Both the position numbers and the translations under genes were made by a program. Positions 7,815 through 11,106 of a DNA stretch of 64,000 nt are shown here, piece after piece. Below the pieces are notes generated by a model that saw nothing but the letters and a program-made list of their open reading frames with translations, did not search any database and was not told where the DNA came from. Source of the stretch: Pontibacter mangrovi (lineage in GTDB: Bacteria; Bacteroidota; Bacteroidia; Cytophagales; Hymenobacteraceae). Location of the stretch: contig NZ_VFRQ01000009.1 in assembly GCF_006385705.1 (NCBI RefSeq), positions 62,001 through 126,000 on the forward strand. Reading direction: 5' to 3'. The stretch's first letter is position 1; the number at the start of each line of letters is the position of its first letter.

Positions 7815-8735
7815 TTACTTTCCTTCTCTTTCCTCCCGCTTCTCGGCTACTCTTAGCTTGGCACTCCTGGAGCGGCTGTTCTGCAGCAGCTCCTCCTCTG
7901 TGGGGGTGATCGGCTTGCGATGCACCGCCTCCAGCGGCTTAATCTCGTTTCCGAACAGGTCTTTCTCCACCTCCCCGAAAAACTTCCCCTTGGCGATGTA
8001 GTTCTTCACCATCCGGTCTTCCAGCGAGTGATACGAGATCACCGAGAGCCTTCCGCCGGGCCTGAGCACCTCCGCCGCCTGCTCCAGCATCTCCTCCAGC
8101 GCCTTCATCTCGTCGTTCACCTCGATGCGGAGCGCCTGAAACACCTGGGCCAGGTACTTGTTCTCTTTCCCTTTCGGGGTGCAGGAGCTGATGGCCTGCT
8201 TAAAATCGGCAATCGTCTCCAGCGGCTGCCGGTTGCGCTTCTCCACCACCGTCCGGGCCAGGGTCTTGGCGTTTTTCACCTCCCCGTAAATCCCGAAGAT
8301 GCGGTGCAGCTGCTCCTCGGAATAGGTCTCGAGCACCTCCTGCGCGGTTATGCCCGCATCGGGGTTCATGCGCATGTCCAATGGCCCGTCGAAGCGGGTA
8401 GAGAAACCACGCGCCGGCACGTCAAACTGGTGCGAGGAAACCCCTAGATCCGCCAGAATACCATCCACCTTCTTCACGCCGTACAGGCGCAGGTACTTCT
8501 TCAGGTCACGGAAGTTGGCGCGCACGAACTGAAAGGTCGGCCCTTCCAGCTTCTTCGACTGCTCCTGCGCGTCACTGTCCTGGTCAAAACTGTAGAGCTT
8601 GCCTGTTGTAAGCTCTTTGAGGATGCGGGCTGAGTGGCCTCCGCCACCAAACGTCACATCCACGTATATTCCGTCCGGCTTTATGGCCAGCGCCGCTACC
8701 GACTCCTCCAGTAATACTGGGCGATGATATTCCAT
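7815..8735 (-). CDS. rsmH: 16S rRNA (cytosine1402-N4)-methyltransferase RsmH (MraW)
   Basis: S-adenosylmethionine-dependent methyltransferase that modifies the ribosomal P-site nucleotide C1402 of 16S rRNA. Its 306 residues start with the family signature HRPVLLEESV. The SAM-binding motif DVTFGGGGHS is at about 27-36, followed by DLGVSSHQFD, FSTRFDGPLDMRM and the C-terminal VISYHSLEDR. The length is normal. The start codon overlaps the mraZ stop by one base at 8735 (TAATG), as in many mraZ-rsmH pairs, so coupled translation is likely. Confidence 0.97.
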   Translation of the reverse strand: MEYHRPVLLEESVAALAIKPDGIYVDVTFGGGGHSARILKELTTGKLYSFDQDSDAQEQSKKLEGPTFQFVRANFRDLKKYLRLYGVKKVDGILADLGVSSHQFDVPARGFSTRFDGPLDMRMNPDAGITAQEVLETYSEEQLHRIFGIYGEVKNAKTLARTVVEKRNRQPLETIADFKQAISSCTPKGKENKYLAQVFQALRIEVNDEMKALEEMLEQAAEVLRPGGRLSVISYHSLEDRMVKNYIAKGKFFGEVEKDLFGNEIKPLEAVHRKPITPTEEELLQNSRSRSAKLRVAEKREEREGK

Positions 8736-9202
8736 TACACAAGCGGCTCTTCAGCCGGTTTATCTCCCAAAAACTTCTGGGCAAGCTGCGAGAAATTCTG
8801 CTGATCCTTTATCAGGAACTCCTCATATTTATCCGGGTTCCAGATCTCCACACGGTTACCCAAGCCCACCACAATCGCCTCCTTCTCCAGCTCTGCAAAC
8901 CGGCCCATGGTCTTGGGCACGATAAAACGGCCCGCCCCATCCAGCTCAATCTCGGTGTTGCCCCGGAAGAAGTTCCGCTGAAAGTGGCGGTACTCCTCGT
9001 TGAACTCGTTCAGGCCGGCCACCTTGTCGTAGATCACCTTCCACTCGGCCTTCGGGTACAGCACCAGGCAAGGCTCAAACCCCCTCATCAGCACCACATG
9101 ATTGCCAGACGCCTCCGGCAGGTTGGCTTTTATCTTTGCAGGTAAAACCAACCTTCCCTTCGGATCGATCTTGCACTCATATTCGCCGGAAAGGAAGTTC
9201 AT
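8735..9202 (-). CDS. mraZ: Transcriptional regulator MraZ
   Basis: DNA-binding regulator with two AbrB-like SpoVT folds. It binds direct repeats in its own promoter and controls the dcw operon. The frame is open to 9286, but the ATG at 9202 is preferred: it yields the standard N-terminus MNFLSGEYECKIDPKGRLVLPA and 155 residues, close to the family norm of about 150. The second copy of the fold carries the matching ELDGAGRFIVPKTM. The gene is first in the cluster and lies downstream of a -33/-7 promoter and three decamer boxes (separate entries), so autoregulation is expected. Confidence 0.96.
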   Translation of the reverse strand: MNFLSGEYECKIDPKGRLVLPAKIKANLPEASGNHVVLMRGFEPCLVLYPKAEWKVIYDKVAGLNEFNEEYRHFQRNFFRGNTEIELDGAGRFIVPKTMGRFAELEKEAIVVGLGNRVEIWNPDKYEEFLIKDQQNFSQLAQKFLGDKPAEEPLV

Positions 9203-9214
9203 AGGCTTATGGTG

Positions 9215-9243
9215 GTATAGTCCGTATAGACTTTGGACTATAC
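9215..9243 (-). promoter_or_regulatory. Inverted repeat in the mraZ 5' untranslated region
   Basis: GTATAGTCC at 9215-9223 is exactly complementary to GGACTATAC at 9235-9243, with an 11-base loop. It lies between the predicted transcription start (about 9237) and the mraZ ATG at 9202. Part of the element may therefore form an RNA hairpin, or the whole may be a DNA operator overlapping the transcription start. No trans-factor is known. Confidence 0.45.
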
Positions 9244-9272
9244 AAATGTAGCCAATCAGCAAAATATCGCAA
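9243..9272 (-). promoter_or_regulatory. Predicted mraZ/dcw promoter
   Basis: Read on the minus strand: TTG (plus 9270-9272), a 19-base spacer, then TACATTTG (plus 9243-9250). This fits the Bacteroidota primary sigma consensus of a -33 TTTG/TTG, 19-21 bases, and a -7 TAnnTTTG. Transcription would start near 9237, about 35 bases ahead of the mraZ ATG. The -33 element abuts the MraZ boxes at 9273-9299. Confidence 0.6.
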
Positions 9273-9299
9273 CCACAATCTACCACTTTTTACCACTTT
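9273..9299 (-). promoter_or_regulatory. MraZ operator: three 10-bp-spaced boxes
   Basis: On the minus strand three consecutive decamers read CAAAGTGGTA, AAAAGTGGTA and GATTGTGGTT. This fits the AAAGTG(T/G)-N3 repeat described for Mycoplasma MraZ and the roughly 10-bp periodic MraZ boxes of other bacteria. The boxes sit directly upstream of the predicted -33 element of the mraZ promoter, the expected place for MraZ autoregulation. Binding is inferred. Confidence 0.7.
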
Positions 9300-9345
9300 G
9301 TGGATAAATTATGGTAATCCACACCACTTATCCACATTATCCACA
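9299..9345. promoter_or_regulatory. Cluster of four DnaA boxes
   Basis: TTATCCACA, the strict DnaA-box consensus, occurs exactly at 9328-9336 and again directly adjacent at 9337-9345. Its complement TGTGGATAA is at 9299-9307, and a one-mismatch copy TAATCCACA is at 9315-9323. Four boxes in 47 bp is far beyond chance. The cluster could be part of a replication origin, a DnaA-titrating site, or a link between DnaA level and division-gene transcription. The first box overlaps the end of the MraZ operator by one base. Confidence 0.65.
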
Positions 9346-9360
9346 CCACCGGCCCCTCAT

Positions 9361-9490
9361 TTTGGGTATAACTAAATTTGCAGCGAATCTCTAAATTCCT
9401 TAAAATACGAGACCTAAAACACATAAACATTTGATTACCAAATGATTATTGCAAAAGGATAGAACATAGTCTATTTTTTATACTTAATAA
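9361..9490. other. AT-rich stretch between DnaA boxes and AAGTGG array
   Basis: About 130 bp of markedly AT-rich sequence without a credible reading frame. It has A/T runs such as CTATTTTTTATACTTAATAA and follows the DnaA-box cluster. Its composition and position resemble a DNA-unwinding element, but this is inference. It also contains a TATACTT heptamer at about 9480. Confidence 0.4.
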
Positions 9491-9495
9491 CTCTG

Positions 9496-9564
9496 AAAGT
9501 GGGACGAAGTGGCAAAAGTGGGAGAAAGTGGAAGGGATTTAACTAAGGTGGAGCAAAGTGGAGG
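9496..9564 (+). repeat. Array of AAGTGG decamers (second MraZ-type box array)
   Basis: GTGG cores on the plus strand begin at 9499, 9509, 9518, 9528, 9548 and 9558, that is, every 9-10 bp with one unit missing at 9538 and a decayed unit (AAAGTTCC) near 9566. Most units read AAAGTGG or GAAGTGG, the same core as the MraZ operator at 9273-9299 but in the opposite orientation and about 200 bp farther from mraZ. No gene starts downstream on the plus strand. The array is therefore not an ordinary promoter operator for a plus-strand gene. Confidence 0.65.
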
Positions 9565-9657
9565 CAAAGTTCCTCTAGAAAAACGATCAGTTGGATAGGT
9601 TCCTGTGGCTGTGGGGATTACTGATAAAGCAAAGCCGAAGCCAGGTTCAAAGAAAAC

Positions 9658-9683
9658 AAAAAAGGAGCTGTTTAAAGCCCCTT
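9658..9683 (-). terminator. Terminator of the outer-membrane barrel gene
   Basis: On the minus strand AAGGGGCT (plus 9676-9683) pairs with AGCTCCTT (plus 9662-9669), with one mismatch and a 6-base loop. A run of T (plus 9658-9663 is all A) follows. It lies 25 bp past the stop codon at 9708. Confidence 0.6.
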
Positions 9684-9707
9684 CCTCATACTCTGATCGA
9701 CCTGTAC

Positions 9708-10307
9708 TCAAAACTTGAATCCCATGTGCACCCCAATAGACAGCACCGGCGTGCCATCGCTGTAATGAAAGTAGGAGATCCTCCCGCCTGCTATACCGTT
9801 GCGAAAAGCGCCAAAGTCGTTTTCCAGGTAGCCAAAGAAGCCGGTATCAGATGTTTTGATATGGGTAACGGAACCGTCCTGCGTGCCCTGCCCTTCCGGA
9901 TCGGAGTTAACCTCGGCGCGATGCCGGACGCTTGGCCCTGCCCCTAAGCGCAACGTTACCTTTTCGCCCTGCAGGGCATCAAAGGCAGCGCCTAAAGAAG
10001 CCATGTAAAATGTGTTCTGAACGGTGAAGATCTTTTTTGCGTCGTCGTAGCGCTTGGCCGAGAGCAGGCCTACATCCAAGCCCACTGATAGCTTCTTGCT
10101 CAGGTAGTGGCTAAAGTTATTACTAAACAAGAGCCCCTGGCTATCGTTTTCGGAAAGCCAGACAAAGTATACGCCTGCCTTCAGCGCCCCCGGCTCCTTG
10201 CCCGCCCCTCCGTTCACAAAAGTTTGCGCATTCGCATCCAAAGGACTGGATAGTAGAATTAGGCTGGTAAAGGCTCTAAGCGCTGCAGAGGCAAAAAAGC
10301 GGTTCAT
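9708..10307 (-). CDS. Outer-membrane beta-barrel protein, function unknown
   Basis: The frame is open to 10460, but the ATG at 10307 gives a normal signal peptide (MNRFFASAALRAFTSLILL, cleavage near ANAQ) and 199 residues. The rest has alternating hydrophobic/polar strands rich in Gly, Tyr and Phe and ends in GFKF. A C-terminal aromatic residue on an amphipathic strand is typical of BAM-inserted barrels. It looks like the small OMP beta-barrel families common in Bacteroidota; no specific function can be assigned. It stands alone, 106 bp after crtW in the same orientation, with its own terminator at 9658-9683. Confidence 0.75.
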   Translation of the reverse strand: MNRFFASAALRAFTSLILLSSPLDANAQTFVNGGAGKEPGALKAGVYFVWLSENDSQGLLFSNNFSHYLSKKLSVGLDVGLLSAKRYDDAKKIFTVQNTFYMASLGAAFDALQGEKVTLRLGAGPSVRHRAEVNSDPEGQGTQDGSVTHIKTSDTGFFGYLENDFGAFRNGIAGGRISYFHYSDGTPVLSIGVHMGFKF

Positions 10308-10413
10308 GGGCTGGAAAGGCAAAGGGTATAACGTAGCGGTTGATGTACAAGCCCTTTGGCATACGGCTGTTTCACCTCCGTAGTTGCGGAAATTATATAT
10401 CCTTTTAAAGATA

Positions 10414-11106
10414 TTATTTGGTTTTATAAAGCTGCCACCAAGGCAGGAAGGGTTTATCATGATGTTCGTAGTGGTAGCCGAAGAAATAACAGCTTATAAA
10501 AGCCCATAGGTGGTTCTTTGGCTGCGTGCCCGACTTGTGGGGGTTATCCTCCGGGTGCTCGCCCCGATGGGGCCGGTAGGTGCCAAAGTAGAAGAGCTGA
10601 AATGTAGCCAGGACGGCCGGCAGCATCCAGAACAGCACCACATTCTCCACCGGAAAGTATAGCTTCAGCACGTTAAACGTGATAGCCATCAGCAGAAGCT
10701 GCCACCAGGTGATATACTGTTTCAGAAAGCTAAAGTACCAGGGCCAGAAGGAACCATGGTGATAGTCGGGATCCTGGCTGGTGGCTACGTGGCGGTGGTG
10801 CTGGTGGTGGCGCGGCAACAGGCGCGGATACCAGTTATAGGCAAACAGCAAGGCCGTCACCGTACCGATCGCTTTGTTAAGTTTTGGCCTGCCAGGGGCT
10901 GCCACCCCGTGCATGGCATCGTGGGCCGTGATGAAAAGGCCCGTATAAAGGTGCGTCTGCAGCAGCAGGAAAACATACGTAAGCGGCGAGGTGAAACGAA
11001 CAGAATAAGACGTGAGCAGGTATACCAGCAGCAAGCCCCAGAGAACAAGTATACTTGCCGCTACCCCTATTCCCCGGAAATCTTTTCTTCTGTTATAAAT
11101 CATCAT
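10414..11106 (-). CDS. crtW: Beta-carotene 4-ketolase CrtW (di-iron desaturase family)
   Basis: Membrane di-iron oxygenase of the fatty-acid-desaturase superfamily that adds keto groups to the beta-ionone ring at C4/C4'. The 230 residues contain the histidine clusters HDAMH, HHQHHRH and HYEHH, plus FGTYRPHR, a pattern typical of CrtW-type ketolases. Several hydrophobic spans lie between the clusters. The start could be either of two adjacent ATG codons (11106 or 11103). It is the last gene of the carotenoid group, 55 bp after ispH. Together with crtZ at 17.3 kb it implies formation of keto-hydroxy carotenoids. Confidence 0.88.
   Translation of the reverse strand: MMIYNRRKDFRGIGVAASILVLWGLLLVYLLTSYSVRFTSPLTYVFLLLQTHLYTGLFITAHDAMHGVAAPGRPKLNKAIGTVTALLFAYNWYPRLLPRHHQHHRHVATSQDPDYHHGSFWPWYFSFLKQYITWWQLLLMAITFNVLKLYFPVENVVLFWMLPAVLATFQLFYFGTYRPHRGEHPEDNPHKSGTQPKNHLWAFISCYFFGYHYEHHDKPFLPWWQLYKTK

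Follow-up and report, generated by a model that had tools for sequence, protein, structure and literature searches.

The window analysed here is the whole 64,000-nucleotide stretch of Pontibacter mangrovi DNA, and all coordinates refer to it. The mraZ gene lies on the minus strand, and the region upstream of its start codon contains two arrays of MraZ-type boxes, separated by DnaA boxes and an AT-rich spacer as described in the initial annotation. The features of the region are as follows.

8735-9202, minus strand: mraZ, MraZ transcriptional regulator, first gene of the dcw cluster; ATG at 9200-9202; TIGR00242 (2e-35) and PF02381 (8.8e-31)
9243-9250, minus strand: -7 element of the mraZ promoter, TACATTTG, Bacteroidota type, assigned from the sequence and conserved in a 28-sequence alignment
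9273-9299, minus strand: predicted proximal MraZ operator (array A), three boxes in steps of about 10 bp, ending directly at the -33 element
9299-9345, both strands: block of DnaA boxes, TTATCCACA, at 9299-9307 (minus), 9328-9336 (plus) and 9337-9345 (plus)
9346-9495, no strand: AT-rich spacer, GC 32% compared with 53% in the window, of near-constant length and low sequence conservation
9496-9561, plus strand: predicted distal inverted MraZ operator (array B), boxes at 9496-9502, 9506-9512, 9515-9521, 9525-9531, 9545-9551 and 9555-9561
9562-9707, no strand: site of the divergent HYC_CC_PP promoter and gene start in 40 of 57 relatives; the gene and its -7 element TANNTTTG are absent in the window

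A single MraZ match was detected in the genome to which the window belongs, and the TIGR00242 and PF02381 hits identify the product of mraZ as a true MraZ. The -33 element of the mraZ promoter, TTG at 9270-9272, is separated by a 19-nt spacer from TACATTTG. Both elements were named according to the Bacteroidota promoter consensus.

Array B begins 293 bp upstream of the mraZ ATG. On the plus strand GTGG starts at 9499, 9509, 9518, 9528, 9548 and 9558, each preceded by AAA, GAA or AAG, and the six units listed in the initial annotation were thus recovered. The description of these units as AAGTGG with 9-10-bp spacing held for five boxes and for most of the steps; the box at 9548 is AGGTGG, and the successive steps are 10, 9, 10, 20 and 10 bp, the run being interrupted by a blank slot at about 9538. 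A weak seventh box, AAAGTTC, is located past the array at 9566-9572. The two arrays were confirmed to lie on opposite strands, array A on that of mraZ, with 196 bp between the facing box ends. When the 500-bp intergenic stretch was shuffled 5000 times with dinucleotides preserved, chains did not exceed 2 boxes, a length reached in 5 shuffles; the observed chain on the plus strand has 6. In 190-bp control windows taken elsewhere in the loci of the 57 relatives, chains of 2 were found in 6 of 7030 windows and longer chains in none. A chance repeat was rejected as the source of array B on the basis of the shuffles and the control windows. An RNA element or riboswitch was rejected as well, as no Rfam match was obtained for positions 8500-10500 at the gathering thresholds.

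The arrays resemble the mraZ/dcw operators of Mycoplasma, Burkholderia and, reportedly, E. coli in having a 7-nt box with a GTG core, a period of about 10 bp and a position upstream of mraZ. According to published accounts, the MraZ site consists of AAAGTG[T/G] repeats in Mollicutes (PMC8475190), and in Burkholderia a 7-nt repeat occurs four times, with 3-nt spacers (PMC7761207). In the same accounts MraZ is reported as a repressor that acts on such repeats and forms octameric rings, and the M. genitalium motif is found at mraZ only (PMC8475190, PMC7761207). Array B, with its AAAGTG(G/T)-like boxes repeated at a period of about 10 bp, corresponds to this type of operator. The known operators comprise, as far as these sources describe them, one array at the mraZ promoter, which in Burkholderia overlaps the transcription start (PMC8475190, PMC7761207). 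Here, in contrast, the -33 element has the proximal array on its upstream side; another array follows after about 196 bp, on the opposite strand, and DnaA boxes lie between the two. No second MraZ array and no MraZ looping were noticed among the titles and abstract openings returned by a literature search.

The strict box pair AAAGTGGNNNAAAGTGG was searched in 50 Pontibacter genomes and gave 96 matches, 50 at the proximal array, 43 at the distal array (in 41 genomes) and 3 elsewhere; 93 of the 96 were thus at the two mraZ-locus arrays, compared with 14 matches of the reversed control. In the genome of the window the pattern AAGTGGN{3,4}AAGTGG occurred 7 times (reversed control, 4), of which 4 were within arrays A and B, and the other three pairs were inside long open frames. 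The off-locus AAAGTGGNNNAAAGTGG matches of two Pontibacter genomes, G004 and G016, were also inside long open frames; the third, in G007, was not. A wider MraZ regulon was rejected, considering that all three other pairs of the own genome and two of the three off-locus matches in the genus are within such frames. The exception, at G007:C12:472721, reproduces the proximal operator pair without a mismatch. The box, its period and its near-exclusive occurrence at the mraZ locus in the 50 genomes give good sequence support to the assignment as an MraZ-type operator made in the initial annotation. A regulator other than MraZ could be supposed to bind both arrays, and among the titles and abstract openings of the literature search no MraZ binding study for Bacteroidota was noticed. 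The agreement of the box with the MraZ sites of Mollicutes and Burkholderia (PMC8475190, PMC7761207) and the near confinement of the strict pair to the mraZ locus make such a regulator very improbable.

The conservation of the arrays was determined in 58 mraZ loci, the window and 57 relatives, of Pontibacter, Botryobacter, Rufibacter, Sabulibacter and Adhaeribacter. The relatives were drawn from the best 80 of 142 mraZ-scan matches in named genomes (79 distinct loci), with L066, a Hymenobacter, and 21 others from beyond these genera excluded. In all 58 loci an inverted chain of 2 or more boxes was observed 230-420 bp upstream of mraZ. The distal inverted pair scored 13 or 14 of 14 in 58/58, which was reached by none of the shuffles, and on the sense strand a score of at least 11 was found in 8/58. 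Close relatives with the proximal operator but without the array had been named earlier as evidence against the proposal; the array was absent in none of the 57 relatives from these five nearest genera.

The distance between the facing box ends of arrays A and B was 193-197 bp in 56 of the 58 loci, when the first distal box was sought only 180-211 bp away, and 186 and 187 bp in the remaining two (L052, L053). Without the range limit the distance was 193-197 bp in 54/58 loci, 186 or 187 bp in two, 236 bp in L004 and 206 bp in L023; in the last two loci the boxes at 196 bp are weaker. The second operator is thus held at a conserved distance by either count. As a yardstick, the ispH-crtW intergenic gap varied from -3 to 505 bp (42 of 57 loci, in which both genes were found). 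The two short distances are about 10 bp, or approximately one helical turn, closer, and are too few to reveal a dependence on helical phase. The sequence of the spacer varied more freely, with pairwise identities mostly of 55-70% (339 of 400 sampled pairs) compared with 57% for shuffled spacers. Within Pontibacter some stretches of the spacer are conserved, and the near-constant spacing could partly reflect shared ancestry. In this genus the short motifs CTCGTATnTTA and TTATACCCAAAA are kept at 9346-9495.

The spacing bears on the possibility that MraZ binds the two arrays independently and without a loop, array B being a sink or a spreading point for titration or for the nucleation of a longer assembly. 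The larger number of boxes in array B (up to six) than in the proximal array, and the variation of this number, would suit such a function. In contrast, a titration site needs no fixed distance, and the 193-197 bp found in 56/58 loci render independent binding rather improbable.

The initial annotation stated that no gene follows array B. This was correct for the plus strand of the window, where the only listed downstream frame is a 118-aa TTG frame at 9591-9947; it is largely antisense to the minus-strand frame 9708-10460 and was not accepted as a gene. The statement did not hold generally, as a divergent HYC_CC_PP-family gene was located directly behind the array in 40/57 relatives. Four of four tested products matched NF047658, of which two passed the curated cut-off and the others fell short of it (E 3e-5 and 1.1e-4). 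No HYC_CC_PP match was obtained in the genome of the window with two queries at E 0.001. A literature search for HYC_CC_PP returned no paper. The Bacteroidota-type -7 element TANNTTTG was present behind the boxes in 40/40 loci with the gene and in 0/18 of the others, compared with 3.7% of shuffled stretches. The distance of TANNTTTG from the first box was 29, 46-48, 68-69, 78-79 or 88-89 bp, that is, it changed in steps of about 10 or 20 bp; in L034 a second TANNTTTG-type motif is located at 56, ahead of that at 88. This directly observed phasing and the strict association with the gene indicate that the array evidently serves the divergent promoter too. In one relative (L002, 2912-5638) a 737-aa frame, recognised by eye as TonB-receptor-like, comes after the divergent HYC_CC_PP gene.

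The adjacent divergent gene is absent in the window and 17 relatives, and the array was kept in all of these 18 loci, at 193-197 bp in 16 and at 186/187 bp in two. One of the 18, L052, was counted as lacking the adjacent gene and has a homologue 1.2 kb upstream. Among those without the gene are all six loci counted from Adhaeribacter, as well as branches with 0.2-0.3 changes per site. On the tree the presence of the gene changed 10 times, with 9 of the changes forced by starred branches. The gene adjoins mraZ in 33 of the 50 Pontibacter genomes, and the strict distal pair was detected equally often with the gene (27/33) and without it (14/17). Array B could be taken as the operator of the HYC_CC_PP gene only, left in the window as a relic of gene loss; the 40/57 relatives with the gene, the presence of TANNTTTG at stepped distances in every one of them and the lack of both gene and TANNTTTG in the window are consistent with this. 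The retention of the array in 18/18 loci without the gene, including Adhaeribacter and the long branches, speaks against the divergent gene as the whole explanation, which we consider unlikely.

Loci of other Cytophagales families were scored for the distal inverted pair at a threshold of at least 11 of 14. The pair was detected, in a weaker form, in 31 of 60 loci and on the sense strand in 6/60, compared with 2.8% of the shuffles; the sense-strand matches include L275 and L276, in which the proximal array itself is inside the scanned part. The 60 loci were hand-picked, in most cases one or a few from each genus, among the matches listed (221 of 390 genomes matched), and lower-scoring matches, such as those of genus g38, are outside the sample. 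L290-L294 had been added on account of a fused DnaA/MraZ motif seen beforehand, with inverted boxes in four, and without them the count is 27/55; when L260, L270 and L271, which are loci seen earlier (L063, L060 and L061), are also dropped, it becomes 24/52. Some further rows of the 60 had been seen beforehand as well. By family, the pair was found in 20/28 loci of f19, 7/15 of f15 and 2/2 of f18, and it was mostly absent elsewhere (1/7 in f4, 1/3 in f8, and 0/5 in f7, f9, f10 and f12 together). The separation of the arrays varies from family to family, so the order as a whole has no single conserved loop geometry. TANNTTTG was present within 90 bp behind the inverted pair in 5 of the 31 positive loci; it was not found in the other 26, four of which had only 32-70 bp to scan. 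Inverted arrays without TANNTTTG in these families form a second argument against an operator of the HYC_CC_PP gene alone.

Hymenobacter, which is less closely related within the family, has a changed proximal operator, and most of its loci have a weak distal pair or none. From a set of 60 Hymenobacter-type loci, three without a recognised proximal operator were dropped; three of the remaining 57 are from a neighbouring genus. The inverted pair reached at least 11 in 10/57 and the sense strand in 2, compared with 4.8% of the shuffles, and nine of the 10 positives were at 57-68 bp from the operator. The presence of an inverted distal pair in Hymenobacter-type loci is, from these sequences, only suggestive. 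In many of the loci (L117-L136, L157-L196) a dyad like TG(A/C)CATT(T/C)TG(G/T)CA was observed by eye, uncounted, upstream of the mraZ operator, and TTATCCACA boxes were not seen by eye where this dyad lies. No mraZ match was obtained in seven genomes of group g4, which are Hymenobacter by context (G060, G062, G094, G118, G139, G147, G174).

The three DnaA boxes between the arrays are perfect, lie within 47 bp and are conserved, and the box at 9299-9307 overlaps the first MraZ box. The resulting fused DnaA/MraZ 15-mer, TTATCCACAAAGTGG at 9293-9307, is present in 58/58 loci of the near genera, once with one MraZ-box base changed. It was detected in 46 of 390 genomes of the order, 17 of which are outside the family; in 8 of the 12 loci read from these 17 it is located just before mraZ. 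The initial annotation had offered a replication-linked control element as an alternative function. The region could be regarded as an origin of replication, or as linked to one, with the boxes and the neighbouring AT-rich stretch as its marks, and the MraZ-fused box is present in every near-genera locus. However, in a complete Pontibacter genome, G035, the lowest cumulative GC skew was at 2.10 and 2.60 Mb and mraZ at 4.43 Mb, the skew having been sampled at 20 points of this one relative and being coarse and noisy (the genome of the window is in 35 contigs). The DnaA boxes moreover end at 9345 and do not include array B. The locus was thus away from the GC-skew minimum, as far as the coarse skew of one relative can tell, and an origin, as one meaning of the replication-linked element, was not supported; we hold it to be most improbable. 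The position of the boxes away from that coarse minimum makes them more likely regulatory than part of oriC, and DnaA may plausibly regulate dcw transcription.

Taken together, array B is probably a distal auxiliary MraZ operator that works jointly with array A in the control of mraZ and dcw, likely by looping, and that is shared with the divergent gene where the latter is present; we hold this explanation with moderate confidence. A role at mraZ/dcw is favoured by the retention of the array without the gene, by a distance that hardly varies apart from two loci in which it is about one turn shorter, and by the occurrence in other families mostly without the promoter element. MraZ, which forms ring-shaped oligomers in other bacteria, would bind array A, which adjoins the -33 element on its upstream side, as well as array B, about 196 bp away. 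The bound arrays would most likely touch, closing a loop around the DnaA boxes and the AT-rich spacer, which may tighten the autoregulation of mraZ and the dcw cluster. Array B would also act at the divergent HYC_CC_PP promoter in most Pontibacter and all sampled Rufibacter loci; in the genome of the window, where this gene is absent, the dcw role alone would remain. The looping by MraZ suggested initially is favoured by the near-fixed separation and the two exceptions about one helical turn shorter. The array, its conservation and spacing, its retention without the gene and the promoter phasing were observed directly, and the binding of MraZ, the looping and the sign of the regulation are inferred from these observations.

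The lac, gal and ara systems are regulated by looping between auxiliary operators. The mraZ locus is similar in that a single multimeric regulator has two operators, the distance between which hardly varies. In contrast to these systems, each operator is here an array of several boxes and the pair is inverted, and the loop is predicted from the sequence. MraZ is a widespread bacterial regulator encoded before the division genes, and the published accounts cited above describe a repressor that uses a single array. That a further, inverted array is conserved at an almost fixed spacing points to regulation over a distance, and would give the ring-shaped MraZ oligomer a natural role. The array is also an example of a regulatory element that apparently serves a neighbouring gene too and is retained where that gene is missing.

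The arrays make a link between replication, through DnaA, and the division genes testable in Bacteroidota. A tentative extension, which we regard as doubtful, is that DnaA at the fused box opens or blocks a fixed-phase MraZ loop, so that the initiation of replication would switch dcw, and that this is general in a part of Cytophagales. The E. coli nrdAB promoter is regulated by DnaA, and as there, the DnaA boxes are clustered in the promoter region; unlike at nrdAB, one of them is fused to an MraZ box (TTATCCACAAAGTGG). A second group of DnaA boxes was observed in G035 at 2.708 Mb (L233, G035:C1:2706500-2710500), just upstream of a gene pair recognised by eye as ribonucleotide-reductase-like. 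Being near the coarse skew minimum, this group could equally belong to the origin as to a DnaA-controlled promoter.
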